From Parvularculaceae bacterium (GTDB taxonomy: Bacteria; Pseudomonadota; Alphaproteobacteria; Caulobacterales; Parvularculaceae): 64,000 nt of DNA. The DNA lies in NCBI GenBank assembly GCA_028284065.1, contig JANQSJ010000010.1, forward strand, positions 62,001 through 126,000, read 5' to 3'. Positions 9,978-57,024 of the stretch are shown here, in pieces. The notes under the pieces were generated by a model. That model did no database searches. It saw nothing but the letters and a program-made list of their open reading frames with translations, and was not told the origin of the DNA. The translations under genes were made by a program, and so were the position numbers. Every line of letters begins with the position of its first letter. Position 1 is the stretch's first letter.

Positions 9978-12377
9978 ATGGGCAAAGATCGGCTGAATTT
10001 TTCTGAGGCGTTGCTGGTTTTGGGCATGCACCGAAGCGGCAGCTCCGCCCTGACGCGCTGTCTGTCCGTTCTCGGATATGCGCTGCCCAGAAATCTCATC
10101 AAGGACAATCGAACAAATCTCCGTGGCCACTGGGAATGCCAGCCGCTCGCGCGCCTGAATGATTCATATCTCGAAGAAGCGGGCCTCGAATGGTCCGATT
10201 GGCGGAGCGGAGGACTTGATCGCGTCGGCGAGGGATTTCGCCGGGACTTCCAGACCGACCTCTGGCGCCTGCTCGCCTCGGAATTCCCCTCCGATGTGGC
10301 TCCCGTCATCAAAGAGCCGAGAATATGTCGTCTCGGCGGAACGTATAAAGACTTCTTCAAGAAAAACGGCGTCGCCGCGAGCTACGTCGTTGTCTTCCGC
10401 CATCCCCATGAAGTTTGCTCTTCCCTTGGCAAGCGCAACGGCCTTCGACGGCTGGATGCGGCGCTGCTTTGGCTGAGATACACGCTCGACGCGGCGATGG
10501 CCGCAAGAGGCGAGCCATGCGTTTTCGTCGCCTACGACAAGCTCCTTGATGATCCGATCGCCGTCTTGTCCCATATCTGCGACTGTCTTTCGCTTAACCC
10601 GCTGCGACGGCTTGAAGACGCGAGCGACGAAATAGCCGCTTTCCTGTCATCCGACCTCCGCCACAATACGAGCCGTACGGAAGACGTCATTCACGACGAC
10701 TTGACGCGCGGATGGATCAGCGACGTCTATGAGGCGCTTCGAATTCTCGCGAAAAATCCGACGGCGCATGAACCGCTCGAGACGCTCTCTCGGGTCCACG
10801 CTGAATTCACGGCGGCTTGCCCTTTTCTTGACGCTGCGCTCACCGAAACTCGCGACGCCGCCGCCGAGGCGGATGAGGCGCTGAAAACCGCGAACGCAGC
10901 TTCCGAACTTCGCGCCGAGCAGATCCGCATCTTGCGAGACGAAAAAATCCAAGCAGCGCGAATGCACGAGGAAATCGAGGCCGCGCTTCGCGGGAGTGTC
11001 GAAGAAGAGCGACAGGTCGCCGCGGCCCAAAAGAAACAAACAGAAAAGCTCACGCTTCGACAATTGGACCACGAGCGAAACGCACGCGCCGACCTACAGG
11101 ACGCGCAAAATGTCGCCGCGGCCCAAAAGAAGCAAATAGAAAAGCTGACGCTTCGACAAAAGGAATTGGAGAAGGCGGAACGCCGGCTTCAACGGCGATA
11201 TCTTCGCGTTCAGGACGAACTCGCCTACCGCAAGGACATGATCGCGAATCTGCACAATTCGACAATGTGGCGGCTAACCGCGCCGCTGCGCCGCGGCGTC
11301 GAGATTTACCGTGGAGTCAGGCATTCTATAGCGGCGCGACTCTCGCGCAGGCGCGAAAGTAGCGACACCGCATCGGCGCAGAAGGAAGACAAGCCGAGCC
11401 AGGCCTCGCCGGTCGCCGATGCGAGCAAGGCTGGGCTCGTAAGGGAATCTAACCTCTTTGACCAGGCCTGGTATCTCGCCAGCTATCCCGATGCGCAGCT
11501 GCACCCTACCGGCGCCGCCGCGCACTATGTGACCGAAGGCTGGCGAAAGGGATATGATCCAAGCGCAGCATTCAATACGAAGGCTTACATCGCTTCCCAT
11601 AAAGACCTTCTTGACCCAGATGAATGCCCTCTAGTCCACTATCTGACTAAGAAAACAGATCGAAAGCCGACATCTTCGCGTGGGCGCGAGAACCAAAAGA
11701 TAGCGGTCTTCACGGCGATTGCGGGGGAATACGACCTGCTTGTTGAACCGGCGAAGGGGTCGGCAGGCGCTGATTTCTTCGTCTTTACGGATGACGTAAA
11801 CGGCCGTTCTTCCGTGTGGCGTCAGGAGCCTTTCGAATATGTCTCGGGGGATCCAACGCGGACCGCGCGCTTTGTGAAAACCCATCCTCACCTGTACTTT
11901 CGGGACTACGACTGGGCGATTTGGCTTGACGGCAATCTCATTCTGAATTGCGATCCGAGAGAGCTTCTTCCTACTGACGATATATCAGCCAGCGTTTTCA
12001 CCTGGAAACACCCTTTGCGAAACTGCGTTTATGAAGAGGGCAAGGAGTGCATTCGCCGGGAAAAGGATGACACGGAGATCATTGAGGCCCATATTCATAA
12101 CTTGCGCAAAAGCAAGTTTCCCGAGCGGGCGGGCTTATTTGAAACGAGCGTTTTCGTAACGCGTCTTGGCGCGCCTGACATTAAGGCTTTCTACGACGCC
12201 TGGTGGAGCGAGATCGACCGGGGCAGCAAGCGCGACCAATTAAGCTTGCCAGTCGCCATCAAGAAATCGGGCGTCAAAGTCGGTTTTCTTGGCGATGACC
12301 GAATGTGCATGCGAACCGATCCGCGCGTCCTTTATCACCGCCATGTGCAGATCGAAGATGCGCGAGCGGATCAATAA
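9978..12377 (+). CDS. Sulfotransferase-like / coiled-coil / 38-residue repeat / DUF616-like fusion protein
   Basis: This 799-residue multidomain protein has four visible parts. Residues about 9-280 are a P-loop sulfotransferase-type domain (GMHRSGSSAL near 16). Residues about 290-420 are Glu/Lys/Arg-rich and predicted coiled coil, with the block AAQKKQ.EKLTLRQ repeated twice, followed by the STMWRLTAPLR motif often found after coils in glycosyltransferases. Residues about 492-565 hold two degenerate copies of the 38-residue FDxxWYLxxxPD repeat also found in the genes at 47834 and 54418. Residues about 573-795 resemble DUF616 (TOD1/MUCI70-type glycosyltransferase-like) with IWLDGNLILN as a candidate metal/nucleotide site. 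It likely sulfates and glycosylates a surface glycan (inference). The next gene starts 15 bases later. Confidence 0.8.
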   Translation: MGKDRLNFSEALLVLGMHRSGSSALTRCLSVLGYALPRNLIKDNRTNLRGHWECQPLARLNDSYLEEAGLEWSDWRSGGLDRVGEGFRRDFQTDLWRLLASEFPSDVAPVIKEPRICRLGGTYKDFFKKNGVAASYVVVFRHPHEVCSSLGKRNGLRRLDAALLWLRYTLDAAMAARGEPCVFVAYDKLLDDPIAVLSHICDCLSLNPLRRLEDASDEIAAFLSSDLRHNTSRTEDVIHDDLTRGWISDVYEALRILAKNPTAHEPLETLSRVHAEFTAACPFLDAALTETRDAAAEADEALKTANAASELRAEQIRILRDEKIQAARMHEEIEAALRGSVEEERQVAAAQKKQTEKLTLRQLDHERNARADLQDAQNVAAAQKKQIEKLTLRQKELEKAERRLQRRYLRVQDELAYRKDMIANLHNSTMWRLTAPLRRGVEIYRGVRHSIAARLSRRRESSDTASAQKEDKPSQASPVADASKAGLVRESNLFDQAWYLASYPDAQLHPTGAAAHYVTEGWRKGYDPSAAFNTKAYIASHKDLLDPDECPLVHYLTKKTDRKPTSSRGRENQKIAVFTAIAGEYDLLVEPAKGSAGADFFVFTDDVNGRSSVWRQEPFEYVSGDPTRTARFVKTHPHLYFRDYDWAIWLDGNLILNCDPRELLPTDDISASVFTWKHPLRNCVYEEGKECIRREKDDTEIIEAHIHNLRKSKFPERAGLFETSVFVTRLGAPDIKAFYDAWWSEIDRGSKRDQLSLPVAIKKSGVKVGFLGDDRMCMRTDPRVLYHRHVQIEDARADQ

Positions 12378-17478: not shown

Positions 17479-18216
17479 TTGACGCGATTTCCGAACCTGC
17501 TCCTTGCGGGCGTGCAGAAGTCCGGCACGACCTGGCTTCACAACACCTTGTCGATGTCGGGGCACATTCTCGGTTCGACGCCGAAAGAGCTTAACTTGTT
17601 CGGGCAGCCGGATTATCGCAGCCGGTTGGATGGATACCGCGCGCATTTTTCGAGCGATGCGAAACCCCGCGCCTCCTATTTTCTGGAGAGCACGCCGCAT
17701 TACTTTCACGCGCCCACAGTTTTGTCCGATGTGCCCGGTCAGATCCGCGAGACGATCGGCGACGTTCAGATCATGGTCGTCCTGAGGAACCCTGTCGACC
17801 GGTACCGGTCCGCATACACGCACCATATGCAAAAGGGCAGGCTCGCCTATACCCCATTTATCGATACGCTGACGGATGAGCAGATCATGTTGGCGACCGG
17901 CCTCTACGGAGATATCCTGCCCCATTGGCGGCGCGTTTTCCCGGATATGCTGGTCTACTCCTACGACCAGCTACAGTCCGACAAGGCCGCGTTTCTCCGC
18001 ACGCTCTTCGTTGATCTGGGGCTTGAATGCGATCTCGACCTCGCAGACTTGCCGGCCCCGACGCACACGTCGACCGACAAACGCGCAGCCGCCGATTGGC
18101 CCGACACGCCGCAGCTGACGCCGGACTTGCGCGCCCGCTTAATCGACTATTACCGCGCGGACGTGGAGCGGTTGGCCGAGCTTGTCGATTTCGACGTCCT
18201 TCGCTGGCTTCTGTGA
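17479..18216 (+). CDS. Sulfotransferase family protein
   Basis: The protein has 245 residues and starts with TTG at 17479, supported by AGGAG about nine bases upstream. The PAPS 5'-phosphosulfate loop is GVQKSGTTWLHN (residues 11-22), and the 3'-phosphate site is VVLRNPVDRYRSAYTHH (residues about 97-113), the classic heparan-type sulfotransferase pair. It follows the GT2-methyltransferase-GT2 gene by six bases, so the two are certainly co-translated from one message. It is the second sulfotransferase of this block and most likely decorates the glycan built by its neighbours. It ends convergent with nhaA. Confidence 0.92.
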   Translation: MTRFPNLLLAGVQKSGTTWLHNTLSMSGHILGSTPKELNLFGQPDYRSRLDGYRAHFSSDAKPRASYFLESTPHYFHAPTVLSDVPGQIRETIGDVQIMVVLRNPVDRYRSAYTHHMQKGRLAYTPFIDTLTDEQIMLATGLYGDILPHWRRVFPDMLVYSYDQLQSDKAAFLRTLFVDLGLECDLDLADLPAPTHTSTDKRAAADWPDTPQLTPDLRARLIDYYRADVERLAELVDFDVLRWLL

Positions 18217-44376: not shown

Positions 44377-47300
44377 GTGGAGGCCTTTCTGAAAAGGCCG
44401 AGGACCGATAGCATCGCCTCCACCACCGATAGGACCCACCCCGCAATGAGAGCCGTCGCCAACGCCACCGCCCGACTTTTCTGGCGGGTTATCCCGTTGA
44501 GTCCAGCCACCCGTGGGCGCCTGGCCGGTCGGCTGTTCAGGGCTTTCCCCGCGGCTTTCGCGTGGACCCCCGCATATCGGGCCTGGAAAGCGGAAGAGGA
44601 CGCCAAAGCCGCCGAGGCTCAAGCGATAAAGCGCGTGGCGGCGATGGAAGTACACGGCGAAGCGGAAACCTACTTGCCGCTTTTGTCATTCGCGCCGCCG
44701 ACCGATGTCGACGTCAGAACAATCGCGTTTTATCTCCCGCAATTCCACCCGATCCCCGAAAACGACGAATGGTGGGGAGACGGCTTTACCGAGTGGGCCA
44801 ATGTGCGCGCTGCGTCGCCGCAGTTTGAAAACCAATTGCAGCCGCGCATTCCAGGCGAACTAGGATATTATGATTTGATGGCGGACGATGGCGTCATGAA
44901 CCGTCAGGCGGAACTCGCCCGCCTTCATGGGGTCAGCGCTTTCTGCTTCTATTTTTATTGGTTCGCCGGCAAGCGACTTCTTGAGGGGCCAATCAAGCGA
45001 TATATGGAAGCGCCCGAGGCCGACCTGCCATTCTGCCTGTGTTGGGCAAATGAAAACTGGTCAAGACGCTGGGACGGACGCGACGATGATTTACTGATTA
45101 CACAGGATCACTCGCCTGACGACGACCTCGCTTTTATTGGTCATATCGCGCAATACCTGCGCGATCCGCGCTATTTGCGGATCAACGGGAGGCCGGTTCT
45201 CCTCGTTTACCGCCCCGCCCTATTGCCAAATGCAGCGGAGACTGTCGCGCGTTGGCGCGACTTCACCCAAAAAAATGGCATTGACGATTTGTATCTCATC
45301 TGTACCGAGAGTTTTGAGACCGGCGATCCGGCGGCGTTCGGTTTCGACGCGGCGACCGAGTTTGCGCCTAATAATATGGGCCTCGAGCCGAAGCCCCATC
45401 TTGTTACGCCATTGCATGAAGACTTTGCCTGCAAGATCTATGATTGGCGCGAACTGGCGAATCGCAGCCGAAACTACGCGGAGCCGGACTACAAACTATT
45501 CCGCAGCGTCACCCAAAACTGGGACAACACGCCCCGGCGCGGCGCCACTGCCGGGGTTCTTGTCGGCGCGACGCCCTCAGTTTACGAGCTCTGGTTGGCG
45601 AACGCAGCGAAGGATACCCGCAGACGGTTTGATCAGCCTGAAGAACGGCTGATATTTGTGAACGCCTGGAACGAATGGGCGGAAGGCGCTTATCTGGAGC
45701 CAGATACGCACTACGGCTACGCTTGGCTTGAAGCGACGCGACGCGCCCTTTCGCCGGCCGCGGCGGCTGAGCGTCCTCGGTTCATTATTGTCACGCACGA
45801 TTTGCGCCGACACGGCGCTCAGAACCTCGCTCTCAACCTCATCAAGACACTTAAGAAACACTATGGCGCAAGTGTCGCCACCATTGCGCTTGGAACTGGC
45901 GACATGGCGCCTGATTTCGCGGCCGAGGGGCCGCTTCAGCTACTCAATCCCGCCGTCGCCACCCTCGAACAAATCGATGACGCCATCACGCGTCTGAAAG
46001 AGCGTGGGTTCGACCGCGCGATCGTCAATTCCGCGGCATCAGGCGGCATCGCCGAACACTTGGCGCGACACCGCATCTGCTTTATCGGCCTGATCCATGA
46101 AATGTCGAAGATCATCGACCGAATGGCGCTTTGCGAGGCTCTTCGCTCGCTAAATGACCACGCGGAAGCGATTGTCTTCCCCGCCGCCCTTGTTCGCGAT
46201 AGCGCAGCTTCCGCTAGCGTTGGGACGTGGCGCAACGCCGTCATTCAGCCGCAGGGCATATATAAACCCGACGGAATTGCATCGTATGCTGAAAAAGAAT
46301 CCGCGCGACGCAGTGTCTGTCAACTGATCGGCGCTGACCCGGACCGCGGACGGATCGTGCTTGGCGTCGGCTTCGCCGATCATCGCAAAGGCGTTGATAT
46401 CTTCATCCGCTGGGCGATTTCTTCGCTCAAGAAGTTTCCACACCTTCATTTCGTATGGCTGGGCGCCACTGACCCCGAGTTCAGCCAAGCAATCGACGAA
46501 CTATTGGAATTGGCTGGCCCTCATCGCGACCGGATCCATTTTCCCGGCTACGTCCAGGATACGGCCGTCTACTATCGCGGGTCCGCCCTCTATGCGCTTT
46601 CATCGCGCGAAGATCCCTTTCCTTCAACGGTCCTCGAGGCGCTCGTGGCTGGAACGCCCGTAATTATGGTCGACGGAGCGACAGGCGCGACGGATTTCAA
46701 GGGCGAGCCGTTTGTGGCGGCGATACCTGATGCGTCGCCGGAAGCGTTCGTGGCGGCGGCGGAAAGTTTCCTGACCACACCCGCGTCGACTCAAGCCGCT
46801 GCGGAACAAGGCGTCGCCAGAATGCAGGGCGACTTCGGCTTCGCGTCCTACGCTGGCGACCTGGCGCGGCTTGCCGGCGCACGCGCGCCGGCGATCTCAG
46901 CAGTCGTGCCCAACTACAATTACGCAGGCTATCTAGAAAAGCGATTGCGCTCAATTCTGGACCAGACCCTCGCGCCTCGGGAGATAATTATCCTCGATGA
47001 TGCATCGACGGACGAAAGCATCGCCGTGGCGCGGCGAACGCTGAAGGACGCCCCCATCAATTGGCGTGTCGTGACCGCCGAAACGAATTCCGGCAGCGTG
47101 TTCGCTCAATGGCGCAAGGCGGCGCGCGAGGCGACAAGCGAGCTCCTCTGGATCGCTGAAGCCGATGATTGGGCGGACCCCAGGTTCTTGGAGATGACTG
47201 CGCGGACGTTTGCACAAAGAGATCTCGTTATGGCGTTCACGCAGTCATATCAGGCGGACGCCAATGGATCGATCCTCGCCACCAGCTATCAGGGCTATGT

Positions 47301-47766
47301 TGAAGATGTCTCATCGACACGGTGGCGGACAAGCTACTACGCATCCGGGCCGCAAGAGATTGTCGAGGGCCTTTCGGTCAAGAACACGATCCCGAATGTG
47401 AGCGCTGCGCTGTTCCGACGTGACGTTTTCCGCGCGACAATAGAAAACAGTTTTGACGAGATCGCTTCATTCCGGGTCGCCGGCGACTGGTGCGCCTATG
47501 TCGGCGTGCTATCGAAGGGCGACATCGCCTTCATTTCGGCGCCGCTCAACTTCCACAGACGCCACAGCGACAGCGTGACGATAAATCGATTTGGCCTGCC
47601 AGAGCTGGCCGAGATCGCTCGCATGCAGCGCCGCGTGGCTGCGGAATTTGACCTACCGGACTTATATAGAGAAAAAGCGAAAGACTATCTCAGCGCGCTA
47701 GTGCAGGAATTCGGGCTCAACGAGCGGTACAGCGAATTCGAGATCGCCAGGGCGATCAACGCCTGA
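44377..47766 (+). CDS. WbsX/GH99-like - GT4 - GT2 fusion protein (1129 aa)
   Basis: Three catalytic-type domains are visible. Residues about 115-455 are a WbsX/GH99-like domain: TIAFYLPQFHPIPENDEWWG, FCFYFYWFAGKRLLEGP, CWANENWSRRWDG and NAWNEWAEGAYLEPD. Residues about 465-835 are a family 4 type glycosyltransferase with a UDP-sugar-binding part (GVGFADHRKGVDIFI, FPSTVLEALVAGTPVI). Residues about 840-1110 are GT2 (ISAVVPNYNYAGYLEKRL, ILDDASTDES, EADDWADPRFLE). The GTG at 44377 is the first start; ATG at 44446 is an alternative. Neither has a strong ribosome site. WbsX-type genes are found in O-antigen and capsule loci. It probably adds several sugars in sequence. Confidence 0.88.
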   Translation: MEAFLKRPRTDSIASTTDRTHPAMRAVANATARLFWRVIPLSPATRGRLAGRLFRAFPAAFAWTPAYRAWKAEEDAKAAEAQAIKRVAAMEVHGEAETYLPLLSFAPPTDVDVRTIAFYLPQFHPIPENDEWWGDGFTEWANVRAASPQFENQLQPRIPGELGYYDLMADDGVMNRQAELARLHGVSAFCFYFYWFAGKRLLEGPIKRYMEAPEADLPFCLCWANENWSRRWDGRDDDLLITQDHSPDDDLAFIGHIAQYLRDPRYLRINGRPVLLVYRPALLPNAAETVARWRDFTQKNGIDDLYLICTESFETGDPAAFGFDAATEFAPNNMGLEPKPHLVTPLHEDFACKIYDWRELANRSRNYAEPDYKLFRSVTQNWDNTPRRGATAGVLVGATPSVYELWLANAAKDTRRRFDQPEERLIFVNAWNEWAEGAYLEPDTHYGYAWLEATRRALSPAAAAERPRFIIVTHDLRRHGAQNLALNLIKTLKKHYGASVATIALGTGDMAPDFAAEGPLQLLNPAVATLEQIDDAITRLKERGFDRAIVNSAASGGIAEHLARHRICFIGLIHEMSKIIDRMALCEALRSLNDHAEAIVFPAALVRDSAASASVGTWRNAVIQPQGIYKPDGIASYAEKESARRSVCQLIGADPDRGRIVLGVGFADHRKGVDIFIRWAISSLKKFPHLHFVWLGATDPEFSQAIDELLELAGPHRDRIHFPGYVQDTAVYYRGSALYALSSREDPFPSTVLEALVAGTPVIMVDGATGATDFKGEPFVAAIPDASPEAFVAAAESFLTTPASTQAAAEQGVARMQGDFGFASYAGDLARLAGARAPAISAVVPNYNYAGYLEKRLRSILDQTLAPREIIILDDASTDESIAVARRTLKDAPINWRVVTAETNSGSVFAQWRKAAREATSELLWIAEADDWADPRFLEMTARTFAQRDLVMAFTQSYQADANGSILATSYQGYVEDVSSTRWRTSYYASGPQEIVEGLSVKNTIPNVSAALFRRDVFRATIENSFDEIASFRVAGDWCAYVGVLSKGDIAFISAPLNFHRRHSDSVTINRFGLPELAEIARMQRRVAAEFDLPDLYREKAKDYLSALVQEFGLNERYSEFEIARAINA

Positions 47767-52823: not shown

Positions 52824-52872
52824 GCCCCCTAAAGTTGGGCCACGTTTTGGCGTAGGTTTCTAATTTTGGGGA

Positions 52873-53169
52873 TTGTTGGTGATGGCGAGGAAGCGGTTCT
52901 CAGATGAGGATATCCTGAAGCTCTTGAGGCAGATCGAGGTGGATCTGAGCTCGGGTTCGAACATTGAGACTGCCTGCCGTTCGGTGGGGATCAGCACGGC
53001 GACTTACTACAATTGGCGACGTCGGTACGGCGGAATGGGTCGCAACCAGCTGTCGGAGATGAAGGATCTGGAGAAAGAGAACCGGCGGCTGAAGAAGATC
53101 GTCGCTGAGCTGGAACTCGATAAGCTGATCCTGAAAGAGAGCCTGGATTTTTTAAAACCGAAGGTCTGA
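52873..53169 (+). CDS. IS3-family transposase OrfA
   Basis: The 98-residue protein has a helix-turn-helix start (FSDEDILKLLRQIEVDL and SVGISTATYYNWRRRYGG) and a leucine-zipper-like C-terminus (MKDLEKENRRLKKIVAELEL). Such OrfA proteins bind the terminal repeats and are fused to OrfB by frameshifting. The slippery heptamer TTTAAAA at 53151-53157 lies near the 3' end. The start could also be the ATG at 52882. Confidence 0.92.
   Translation: MLVMARKRFSDEDILKLLRQIEVDLSSGSNIETACRSVGISTATYYNWRRRYGGMGRNQLSEMKDLEKENRRLKKIVAELELDKLILKESLDFLKPKV
53151..53157 (+). other. Slippery heptamer TTTAAAA for -1 frameshifting
   Basis: In the orfA frame it is read T-TTA-AAA, the X-XXY-YYZ pattern. The orfB frame is open across the site and -1 relative to orfA. 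No downstream stem-loop or pseudoknot was assigned. Confidence 0.7.
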
Positions 53170-53192
53170 CCCCAGAGCAACTGCGTCAGGCC

Positions 53193-54017
53193 GTGATCCA
53201 TGCAAGGCAGAAGCTGGGCTCATCGGAGAGACGAACCTGCCAGGTTATGGGGTTCTCCAGATCCACGCACCAGTACCAAAAGATCTCGAAAGATGAGGAC
53301 AGCCCCCATGACATAGAATTGCGGCTGGCTCTGATCCGTTTAGCAAAGCAGTATGGTCGCTATGGCTATCGGAAGATCACTCAGCTGCTGAAGGTCGAAG
53401 GCTGGGACATCAACCACAAGCGGGTTGAGAGGATCTGGCGTGAGGAAGGGCTTCAACTTCCTCAACGGCACAAGAAGCGGCGACGTCTCTACCACAAAGA
53501 CTCATCGGTTATCCGCCTGCGGCCTAAGTACCCGAACCACATCTGGAGCGTGGATTTCGTCCATGATCGTTTGAGCAACGGGCGCTCCTACAAGATGCTG
53601 ACGGTCATCGATGAGTACACGCGGGAAGCTCTCACGGTCTCAATCCACACCAAGATGAACGGCGAGGATGTCCTCGAGGCTCTCTATCCGCTGCTGCTGA
53701 AACACGGGAAGCCGGAGTATCTGCGTTCCGACAACGGTCCTGAGTTCGCTTCTCAGAGCTTCCAAGCATGGCTCAAAAAGGTCAGCATCGAGCCCATCAG
53801 GATCTACCCGGGCAGCCCCTGGGAGAACGGCTACAACGAGCGGTTCAACGGCACCCTCCGCCACGAAGTGCTGAACACGGAATGGTTCACCACCATCGAC
53901 CAAGCTCGGACCGTCATCGGCAAATGGCTCAGACAGTACAACAAGGTCCGCCCTCACCAAGCCCTGAACATGCGCCCACCCGTACCAGAAACTCTAGCAA
54001 CAAATGGCCCAGAGTGA
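53193..54017 (+). CDS. IS3-family transposase OrfB (DDE integrase core)
   Basis: The reading frame is complete from at least 53148, in the -1 frame relative to orfA, so it is probably made as an OrfAB fusion. The conventional start, GTG at 53193, gives 274 residues. The DDE core is clear: IWSVDFVHDRLSNGRSYKML (first Asp), YLRSDNGPEFASQSFQAWL (second Asp) and SPWENGYNERFNGTLRHEVLN (Glu). IS3 transposases move by excised circles. The core is intact. Confidence 0.93.
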   Translation: MIHARQKLGSSERRTCQVMGFSRSTHQYQKISKDEDSPHDIELRLALIRLAKQYGRYGYRKITQLLKVEGWDINHKRVERIWREEGLQLPQRHKKRRRLYHKDSSVIRLRPKYPNHIWSVDFVHDRLSNGRSYKMLTVIDEYTREALTVSIHTKMNGEDVLEALYPLLLKHGKPEYLRSDNGPEFASQSFQAWLKKVSIEPIRIYPGSPWENGYNERFNGTLRHEVLNTEWFTTIDQARTVIGKWLRQYNKVRPHQALNMRPPVPETLATNGPE

Positions 54018-54023
54018 TGGGGC

Positions 54024-54417
54024 TGGACATCCGAATATGAACAGTTAAGCGGCCGTGGCTGCGTAACATCAATGTAAAAGTTCGTCGACGCGGATGAAAT
54101 TGCGGCTGGTGACTTGGCGCTGGACCTACGATTACTATCCTTTGCCAACAAATATATGCCTTTCACCATTGGCCAATAATCAACGCTTCCAACGTCTGCT
54201 CGTATCGCTGGTCGCATATTGTGCATGTTAAGTCGTGGACACTCTTCACACCGCGAACATGTTTGATCAGGTCGGGACTAACGATCGCCTGCCATCAACG
54301 ACGCAGTGGTCACATACTTCAATAGGCACCGGGCAATATTATTGATAGATTTGACGCCCCTTCGCGCTCTCGCTATGAGCCGTTCCTTCAAAAACCCGGA
54401 GGCACCGGCTGATCCAA
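54024..54417. other. Intergenic region after the IS3 element
   Basis: About 394 bases with clearly lower GC and no gene I can support. A GGAGG at 54398-54402 stands 15 bases before the next start. The remaining sequence may be a remnant of an older gene or of the promoter region of the next gene. Confidence 0.45.
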
Positions 54418-57024
54418 ATGAACGCGCTTTTCGATGTCGGGTATTATCTCCGCCTCAATTCAGATGTGGCGAGGGTTTACCGCGACCCGCTCGAACATTA
54501 TCTCTCGCGCGGCTGGGCGGAAGGCAGAAACCCAAATCCGCTCTTTGACGTCTCATGGTATCTTGACCAGAACCCGGATGTATGCGCGAAGGGATTAAAC
54601 CCTCTGCGTCACTACGTGTCCGCTGGCTATGTTGAGGGCCGATCGCCACATCCTCTTTTCGACCCTCGCTTCTATCTTGAACTCAATCCTGACGTTGCTG
54701 AGGCTGGCGTTGAGCCGCTTCTGCATTTCTTAAATCACGGCGGCCGCGAAGGCCGCGCCCCGCACCCGCTCTTCGACGCCGAGTTCTACCTCGAAGAATA
54801 CCGCGATGTCGGCAGGTCGGAGATCAATCCCCTTGTCCACTTCATTCAAGAAGGATGGCGCACCTCCAGATCCCCACACCCGCTCTTCGACGTCAAATTC
54901 TATCTTGAGGACAACGCGGTCGACTTACGCCCGGGGGTTGATCCTCTCACGCACTATCTTACCGAGGGCTGGAAAAGACATTATCGTCCTCATCCACTCT
55001 TCGACCCGACGTGGTATCTCGCGCAAAATCCAGACGTTGCCGAGCATGGCGTCGAACCGCTGCGCCACTTCGTGGAATTTGGCGGACGGGAACGGCGAGA
55101 CCCTAATCCCTATTTCGACGTGACGTGGTATACGAGGATTTATTCAGATGTCGGACAAGATGGCGCAAAAGCACTAGCCCACTACGCCAACGCAGGCTGG
55201 CGAGAGCGGAGAAGTCCGTCAGCCAGGTTCGACACCGATTACTACATCAAAGAAAACAACGATGTTGCGACGACAGGCGCTAATCCCTTAGCGCACTTTC
55301 TCACCTGCGGCCTCAAAGAAAATCGAGAACCAAGGCGGACGCCTTTGCTCGGTGCGCATGAGATTTGCGGAGAGTACGCGTCTACACACCTTGGCGAAGT
55401 AGTGATTCTTGGTGACAACCGAACTGAACCGCCGAATGAATGGTCCGGAGCGTTTGCAGTCCACCTGCATCTCTTTCACGTAGACTTAATAGACACGTTC
55501 TTTGCGCACCTTTGTCACATTCCGTTGGAATTTGCGCTATTTATCAGTGTGCCAAATAAATTGGCCGCGGAACTCGCTGAGCGTCGCTTTTCGAAATTAC
55601 CGCGCGTAAATCTCATTGGCGTCGAGGTGGTTCAGAACAGAGGCCGAGACGTTGCGCCATTCTTCGTGACTTTCGGCGAACGGCTCTCCGCCTTTGATCT
55701 TGTTTGCCATATTCATTCGAAAAAAAGTTCGCATTCGGCGGAGAAACACGATTGGTGCATGCATCTTCTTCATCACTTGATGCATAGCGATTCGCACTTT
55801 GCACAAATTCTTACTCTCTTTGCAGACAACCCTCGTTTAGGCATGGCCTTTCCAGTCTATCATCCAAGCATACGGAACCAGATAAAATGGGGAAACAACT
55901 TCGAGAAAGTGCGGGAGCTCTGCGGGCGACTCGGCGCGCCAGTTTGCGAAGAAGGTTTACGTCCCTTCCCGGCTGGAAATTTCTTTGTTGCGCGCACCGA
56001 CGCGCTCCGACCGATTTTCCAACTGGGCCTTTCGCTTGAAGATTTTGAGGCCGAGACGGGACAGGAAGACGGCACGCTCGCGCACGCGATCGAAAGGTGC
56101 CAAACTCTAGTTACTGATTATCTCAACTTCACAACGGTCCAGGTCCGATCCGACAAGCCACATTCCCTATCCACAACCTATTGTGATGGGCGCGAATACG
56201 TTTCGCAGGGCCTTGAGCGACTTCGACAAGATGCAACTGCTTCACTCCCTTCCATTCGCTTGGCCGTCGGAAAACGCGTTCGAGTGGCGTTCTATACGTG
56301 CTCGAAGGGGCGTCTCGAGCAGCTGATGCCGTTTGAGTCGTTCATCGAGGAAGCGGACTACTTTTATATTGCGGATTCGCCTTTGAGCGAGACCGGTTTC
56401 TGGCGCTTTCGCGAGACGGCGTTCGTTGAAAGCAACGCCCTCAAGCGCGCATTCCTACACAAAACCCAGCCCCACCTTCTTTTTGATGATTACGACATTG
56501 CTGTCTGGGTGGACGAGCACCTATCAATAACAGGCGACGTTTGTCCGATGATCGATCGGACTATCAAAGAAGGAGCGTGCTTCGGCGTTGCGCCTCATCC
56601 GTACCGGAAGGATTGCTACGAAGAGGCGGCGAGGCTCAAGCGGCTCTCTAAGCACGACCCTTCCAGAGTAGCTAGCCAAGTGGAGGGATATTGGGCGGAG
56701 GGTTACACTGGCGAAAACGGGCTTTCCGAAACGGAGTTCATCATTATGGACCTGAGGCGCCGTGAGACCCGTAATGCGCTAGACATCTGGCATCGCGAGA
56801 TCGACGCTCATTCGTTGCTAGACAATTTGAGTTTTGACTACGCTTGCTGGAAAGCAAATGCGGATACCGTTCAGGTCATTGACAATGGCCAGTCGGTTAA
56901 AGCTAGCCACTGTTTCTCATATTTTCCAGATGGAGGCATGACCCATCCGTACCGCGACGTGTTGCATCGTCTTGGTGGCAGTGCGCATCCCGGAGCACGT
57001 CCCGCCGGCAACGATGTCTCTTGA
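54418..57024 (+). CDS. Eight 38-residue repeats - RgpF-like - DUF616-like protein (868 aa)
   Basis: Residues 4-307 are eight tandem 38-residue repeats with the consensus FDxxWYLxxNPDV then PLxHYLxxGWxEGRxPxP; the first repeat begins directly after the start codon. Residues about 325-600 resemble rhamnan synthesis protein F (RgpF): VHLHLFHVDLIDTFFAHL, VVQNRGRDVAPFFVTFG, LVCHIHSKKSSH and the end of the domain PFPAGNFFVARTDALRP. Residues about 620-850 resemble DUF616 (RVRVAFYTCSKG, DYDIAVWVDEHLSI, LSETEFIIMD). RgpF-type enzymes add rhamnose in rhamnan or O-antigen synthesis. The repeats may bind a glycan or partner enzymes. The gene stands alone after the IS3 element. Confidence 0.85.
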   Translation: MNALFDVGYYLRLNSDVARVYRDPLEHYLSRGWAEGRNPNPLFDVSWYLDQNPDVCAKGLNPLRHYVSAGYVEGRSPHPLFDPRFYLELNPDVAEAGVEPLLHFLNHGGREGRAPHPLFDAEFYLEEYRDVGRSEINPLVHFIQEGWRTSRSPHPLFDVKFYLEDNAVDLRPGVDPLTHYLTEGWKRHYRPHPLFDPTWYLAQNPDVAEHGVEPLRHFVEFGGRERRDPNPYFDVTWYTRIYSDVGQDGAKALAHYANAGWRERRSPSARFDTDYYIKENNDVATTGANPLAHFLTCGLKENREPRRTPLLGAHEICGEYASTHLGEVVILGDNRTEPPNEWSGAFAVHLHLFHVDLIDTFFAHLCHIPLEFALFISVPNKLAAELAERRFSKLPRVNLIGVEVVQNRGRDVAPFFVTFGERLSAFDLVCHIHSKKSSHSAEKHDWCMHLLHHLMHSDSHFAQILTLFADNPRLGMAFPVYHPSIRNQIKWGNNFEKVRELCGRLGAPVCEEGLRPFPAGNFFVARTDALRPIFQLGLSLEDFEAETGQEDGTLAHAIERCQTLVTDYLNFTTVQVRSDKPHSLSTTYCDGREYVSQGLERLRQDATASLPSIRLAVGKRVRVAFYTCSKGRLEQLMPFESFIEEADYFYIADSPLSETGFWRFRETAFVESNALKRAFLHKTQPHLLFDDYDIAVWVDEHLSITGDVCPMIDRTIKEGACFGVAPHPYRKDCYEEAARLKRLSKHDPSRVASQVEGYWAEGYTGENGLSETEFIIMDLRRRETRNALDIWHREIDAHSLLDNLSFDYACWKANADTVQVIDNGQSVKASHCFSYFPDGGMTHPYRDVLHRLGGSAHPGARPAGNDVS
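54427..55338 (+). repeat. Eight tandem 114-bp (38-codon) repeats
   Basis: The N-terminal part of the 868-residue protein is a tandem array of eight 38-residue units of diverging sequence and nearly constant length. At DNA level the copies have diverged strongly; the periodicity is clear only in the protein. Confidence 0.9.

Follow-up and report, generated by a model that had tools for sequence, protein, structure and literature searches.

To our knowledge, how separate polymerising and capping enzymes meet is understood for only a few polysaccharides. The closest described system is that of WbdD and WbdA in the ABC-transporter pathway. In the accounts of it that we draw on, WbdD has a head that caps the chain, a coiled coil that acts as ruler and a C-terminal region through which the polymerase WbdA is recruited; the type is that of E. 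coli O9a and also of K. pneumoniae O3, O4, O5, O7 and O12, with modules variably split or fused (PMC3482155, PMC11231755). The terminator candidates considered here, all linked to a 38-aa repeat, resemble WbdD in having an enzyme head, a long putative coiled coil and a C-terminal region that is putatively membrane-proximal. Unlike in WbdD, the head is usually a sulfotransferase (a methyltransferase in an E. coli plasmid operon) with a putative chain-capping role, and the C-terminal region carries the repeat, which goes unmentioned in the descriptions of WbdD available to us.

The window, by which we mean the whole 64,000-nucleotide stretch of a Parvularculaceae genome that was analysed, encodes three repeat-bearing proteins, P868, P1552 and P799 (Table 1). 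A sequence-only reading had reported eight copies at the start of P868 and two each in P1552 and P799, in three different catalytic contexts. All of these copies were recovered, and Pfam assigns the contexts as RgpF with TOD1/MUCI70, WbsX with GT4 and GT2, and Sulfotransfer_3 with TOD1/MUCI70. Both copies in P799 had been called degenerate, which holds only for the weaker second one (E 2e-13 versus 1e-17). The P868 array measures 912 bp, or 8 x 114, with all eight units in perfect register and unit i starting at 54427+114(i-1); their E-values range from 2e-18 to 2e-20 in a search with a profile whose training set includes them. Compared with WbdD, P799 offers as a candidate capping head a sulfotransferase domain near the cut-off (28.0 versus 27 bits), followed by a proline-free stretch of 153 aa, rich in charged residues, Ala and Gln and judged by composition, which ends in a putative membrane-proximal helix, TMWRLTAPLR. 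Near P799 there is one more sulfotransferase gene, standing alone at 17479-18216, which hints at a sulfated glycan.

Table 1. Repeat-bearing proteins of the window, their parts and a repeat-free neighbour (window positions).
Feature	Position	Strand	Description
P799	9978..12377	+	799 aa: Sulfotransfer_3, coiled-coil-like stretch, TMWRLTAPLR, 2 repeats, TOD1/MUCI70
Sulfotransferase domain (Sulfotransfer_3) of P799	10014..10595	+	Pfam, 28.0 bits, cut-off 27
Proline-free coiled-coil-like stretch of P799	10824..11282	+	153 aa, charged/Ala/Gln-rich
TMWRLTAPLR motif of P799, end of coiled coil	11262..11291	+	
Two repeats of P799, second degenerate	11454..11675	+	E 1e-17 and 2e-13
TOD1/MUCI70 (DUF616) domain of P799	11850..12266	+	Pfam
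WbsX-GT4-GT2 protein without repeats	44377..47766	+	1129 aa, just 5' of P1552, catalytic set identical
P1552	47834..52492	+	1552 aa: N-terminal proline-free coiled-coil-like stretch, 2 repeats, WbsX, GT4, GT2
Two repeats of P1552	48347..48574	+	E 2e-19 and 8e-20
P868	54418..57024	+	868 aa: 8-repeat array, RgpF, TOD1/MUCI70 (DUF616)
Eight-unit array of P868	54427..55338	+	tandem 38-aa units, residues 4-307
RgpF domain of P868	55450..56103	+	residues 345-562, Pfam
TOD1/MUCI70 (DUF616) glycosyltransferase-like domain of P868	56446..56868	+	residues 677-817, Pfam

The profile, built from the twelve window copies, was run in six frames against the whole 3.74-Mb genome. It revealed a fourth repeat protein of seven to eight units on contig C2, where copies outside the training set reach E 2e-21; the rest of the genome gave three weak matches only (E 0.1-0.6). 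Conservation was then taken from 350 units. F2, Y7, H24 and G29 are near-invariant and D3, D13, E32, R34 and P36 are strong, while N11, P12 and W30 are only preferred, so that 'strict', the word previously used for the consensus, is slightly too strong. Since units of the P868 array share 28-68% aa identity and a search for a DNA-level tandem repeat within it found none, the array is old, and recent expansion at the DNA level was rejected. A unit-by-unit comparison of arrays between related genomes, meant to tell specific from generic roles of the repeat, gave no clear colinearity.

IS3-family-like transposase genes (52830-54040, with the transposase ORF at 53193-54017) lie between P1552 and P868 and may have separated two repeat genes that were once adjacent. 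The transposase gene has a 71%-identical relative on contig C3, and no terminal repeats were recognised around it. Loss of the N-terminus of P868 through this element was considered; the protein opens with a full first unit.

What kind of module is the repeat? AlphaFold2, given an 11-row alignment of four-unit segments (A3), returned a very confident model (mean pLDDT 95.3, pTM 0.87) in which each unit is predicted to form three short helices and a loop. In the full-length model of P868 the pattern is kept in all eight units with small variations (block pLDDT 85-96); after the array come a linker of low confidence and the RgpF domain, most of which is confident, and no part besides these two domains is confident. 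TPR-like, ankyrin and Sel1 repeats are likewise short tandem helical units, of 33-40 aa, whose elongated arrays serve as binding scaffolds, and such scaffolds are an already known kind. The window repeat differs from them in its three short helices per unit, in that Pfam matched none of them in the window proteins at E<=1, and in that Foldseek gave no match in the PDB, where each is represented by many structures; a divergent TPR, ANK or Sel1 repeat was rejected on these profile and fold searches. Foldseek returned no PDB match for the four-unit model at E<=10, whereas the positive control, the full-length P868 model, matched GT-A glycosyltransferases. Searches of PDB sequences with a single sequence and with a profile gave no match (best profile E 0.099), and Pfam and NCBIfam gave no accepted match over the repeat region, the best being Plasmid_RAQPRD (E 0.051) and TIGR01338 (E 0.17), both below cut-off. 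DUF4214 (PF13946) was also rejected, with matches in none of five repeat-rich genomes and a positive Synechococcus control. RgpF (PF05045), WsaF (PF21374/PF22772), WbsX (PF14307) and TOD1/MUCI70 (PF04765) are frequent catalytic neighbours, but the repeat is not part of these families, and the domain matches in the window begin after it. Motif strings and domain combinations retrieved no description of the repeat from a searched literature of 5.39 million papers that leaves most subscription journals outside. Thus neither a family entry nor a solved structure nor a paper could be found for the 38-aa repeat, and no characterised repeat family with a non-glycan role emerged as its match.

In a repeat-only search of 299 genomes drawn evenly from the phylum, we detected the repeat in 31. 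Among 61 relatives from the window's family and order its distribution is patchy, with 14 carrying it, and it is found in neither of the two other genomes of the genus. Two loci, L130 (same family) and L031 (Parvularculaceae), have identical unit scores at matching contig positions. Relatives of the repeat also occur in Chthoniobacterales, Acidobacteriaceae, Elusimicrobiales, Oscillospiraceae, Bacteroides and Cyanobacteria. The distribution of the repeat proteins is not free of glycan enzymes: by hand tallies of Pfam domains, 37 of 60 repeat proteins from the draw carry glycan-polymer domains (GT, RgpF, WbsX, WsaF or CDP-glycerol-transferase), which bears out the proposed link. The rest include sulfotransferases (2), a CmcI-like methyltransferase, a nucleotidyltransferase, an NRPS-like A-PCP-TE protein, clearly exported types (5: three RTX, one subtilase, one Ig/FG-GAP) and 13 proteins with no domain, some of which resemble GTs, coiled-coil or exported proteins by eye. 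On annotated plasmids, repeat proteins are mostly glycosyltransferases, GH99-like (WbsX) proteins and methyltransferases, with some M10/RTX/Ig proteins. RTX and M10 C-terminal exported proteins thus carry the repeat too, chiefly in a 42-43-aa form; they have no glycan-synthesis domain, and the window proteins have no RTX repeats. In five loci (L038, L039, L043, L046, L115) the 42-43-aa units of exported RTX-type proteins are often closed by one 38-aa unit. The NRPS-like protein, a non-glycan megaenzyme, ends in three repeats (L121:596-5086(+)).

Repeat genes tend to lie together: among the 15 genomes that have two or more repeat ORFs, a hand count gives 7 with a pair within 10 kb (expected 0.49). 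In a Methylococcales locus (L033:1828-10287) four consecutive same-strand repeat ORFs occur with a small one on the opposite strand, C-terminal single long units coming first and arrays of 4 and 6 units following.

The sequence-only reading held that the repeat always precedes a catalytic glycan domain. This is true of the three window proteins and false of the family: arrays lie nearer the C-terminus in 33 of 92 repeat proteins, and the rule fails outside the window because at least five repeat proteins are exported. Position instead differs between two kinds of protein. In GT proteins the array is N-terminal in 33 cases, one of them with repeats on both sides of the GT, and C-terminal in 4, whereas in sulfotransferase, methyltransferase or coiled-coil proteins lacking a GT, with coiled coils judged from proline-free runs and composition only, it is N-terminal in 0 and C-terminal in 7. 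In tests whose groupings, motif and thresholds were chosen after examples had been seen, this contrast gives P = 9e-6, and the sulfotransferase/coiled-coil/motif signature occurs in 4 of 48 immediate upstream ORFs of repeat loci versus 1 of 751 other ORFs (P = 5.5e-5); the immediate upstream ORF is not of ruler type at the other 44 loci.

The two kinds are paired in an ABC-type capsule operon on the E. coli plasmid pPSS-13_1, which also holds an ABC permease, an ATPase and rmlABCD-type genes. Its 880-aa protein comprises a methyltransferase, a proline-free coiled coil of ~480 aa, the motif SWKLTAPVR and, at the extreme C-terminus, two repeats; two bases after its gene follows a GT2 gene with one N-terminal repeat. 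The same arrangement recurs in L129 with a 33%-identical head, an ABC permease and an ATPase. A sulfotransferase-coiled coil-S(S)WRLTAPLR ORF sits immediately 5' of a repeat GT in the C2 locus of the window genome, in L031, in L076 and in Paracoccus yeei; in L037 a 155-aa ORF with the motif takes this place, and L094 and L034 have such an ORF close by, though outside the immediately 5', same-strand position. An ABC2 permease lies in the C2 repeat locus (C2:340555-341163), and permeases of Wzm/KpsM type are near repeats in L136, L129 and L124; for the window cluster, none was found on the window's contig, C17.

The two genes of pPSS-13_1 occur in 17 of the 5426 complete E. coli genomes searched, for the most part on plasmids. 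This is also the count for the pair of repeat genes in L136 (NZ_AP027705.1 37636-62072), a capsule operon of ABC type that is carried on a plasmid and encodes repeat proteins; 14 of the places are on plasmids. One sulfotransferase-coiled coil-TSWRLTAPVR ORF (L027:9718-11976(-), genome C2:349717-351975) stops where the WbsX domain begins (FCLPQFHPIAENKA) and is probably a broken gene; L031, by contrast, has the full ST-coiled coil-WbsX-GT4-GT2 protein.

Why would one module sit at opposite ends of two kinds of protein? The computations show the repeats themselves, their predicted fold, the accompanying domains, the order of the genes and the placement at the N- or C-terminus. From these we infer three roles: the repeats would bind partner proteins, the sulfotransferase would terminate chains and the coiled coil would gauge their length. 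With slightly less than even confidence, we propose a docking role for the repeat, as a module of tandem helical units that assembles the polymerase and terminator of surface polysaccharide machines, above all those of ABC-transporter type. N-terminal arrays on polymerising glycosyltransferases would form one docking side; the other would be short arrays at the membrane-proximal end of terminator/ruler proteins, laid out as a sulfotransferase or methyltransferase head, a long coiled coil and an SWRLTAPLR helix. The arrays would bring polymerase and terminator together, and, in the manner of WbdD with WbdA, the head would cap a chain that has grown long enough to span the coiled coil. On this view P799 would combine, in one polypeptide, a GT with a terminator/ruler whose head is the sulfotransferase, and P1552 and P868 would be its array-bearing polymerase partners. 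Docking is favoured because the repeat takes the place of the recruiting region in the available accounts of WbdD and because the polymerases carry the counterpart. Of the earlier suggestion of a glycan-binding or scaffold module, the scaffold half is thus supported by the partner pattern. Against docking stand the lack of an ABC2 permease on the window's contig, the 44 of 48 loci whose immediate upstream ORF is not of ruler type, the four GTs with a C-terminal array and the exported repeat proteins (at least five in the even draw, and all those scanned in genome G280), which cytoplasmic polymerase docking does not explain.

Because glycan binding alone would also explain the exported proteins, it is the main rival, though we regard it as doubtful. 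Each unit would bind a short polysaccharide stretch, so that GTs hold the growing chain and exported proteins are held on surface or matrix polysaccharide; a single function would then span cytoplasmic glycan enzymes and RTX, subtilase and Ig proteins, and the conserved aromatic and polar residues (W6, Y7, H24, Y25, D13, E32, R34) would suit it. However, these residues are the same whatever the catalytic neighbours, although the polymers differ widely, and the positions that a specificity surface would use (4, 5, 9, 16, 19, 23 and 27) are the most variable ones across the 350 units. Glycan binding also sits poorly with the repeats that end the NRPS-like protein and does not predict the N/C-terminal partner pattern. 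A division of one fold into two functional classes, the 38-aa form for cytoplasmic glycan complexes and the 42-43-aa form for an unrelated adhesion-type role in exported proteins, seems to us quite improbable: the long form (NPDVAxAVxxGxFxSAxEHY) makes up 52% of units in exported proteins versus 3% in glycan enzymes, but exported arrays include 38-aa units as well (19 of 42) and a few GTs have long ones. Least probable of all is a module that merely spaces large enzymes or places them at the membrane or envelope with no specific partner, for although the units are rich in aromatic residues and arginine, sometimes just follow a coiled coil and a basic WRLTAPLR helix, and vary freely in number from 1 to 18, the near-invariance of H24, G29, Y7 and F2 exceeds a spacer's needs and exported RTX proteins do not fit inner-membrane tethering.

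The repeat may extend beyond cellular genomes. The best predicted viral structure match in Foldseek is a giant-virus GT2 (E 2.6e-4), with weaker giant-virus matches to a dTDP-6-deoxyhexulose reductase, a DUF5672 protein and an FkbM methyltransferase, and giant-virus (Hyperionvirus) glycan enzymes appear to carry the repeat, which adds to the support for its glycan link. The Hyperionvirus glycan enzymes are BFVD A0A3G5AB74, A0A3G5A8B2, A0A3G5A882 and A0A3G5A8D1, the match being statistically solid only for A0A3G5AB74. When the viral search was widened with back-translated patterns, it turned up just two loci. An unlikely but broader form of the docking proposal is that the three-helix fold is a general assembly code, by which polymerases with arrays recognise coiled-coil terminators with repeats, among them a new chain-terminating sulfotransferase class, and that giant viruses have acquired the module for use in glycan enzymes of their own.

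In ABC-transporter-type loci two partners are marked by the repeat: glycosyltransferases, which have it at the N-terminus, and proteins of WbdD-like layout, which either have it at the C-terminus or lie beside a repeat-bearing GT. This placement suggests a role in joining the enzymes that build the chain to those that finish it. Since no family entry or solved relative was found, one structure of the repeat would annotate many proteins. If the repeat is indeed a portable docking module, partners would become readable from sequence across many uncharacterised loci; it would also flag sulfotransferase-capped polymers and offer a handle on glycan length.
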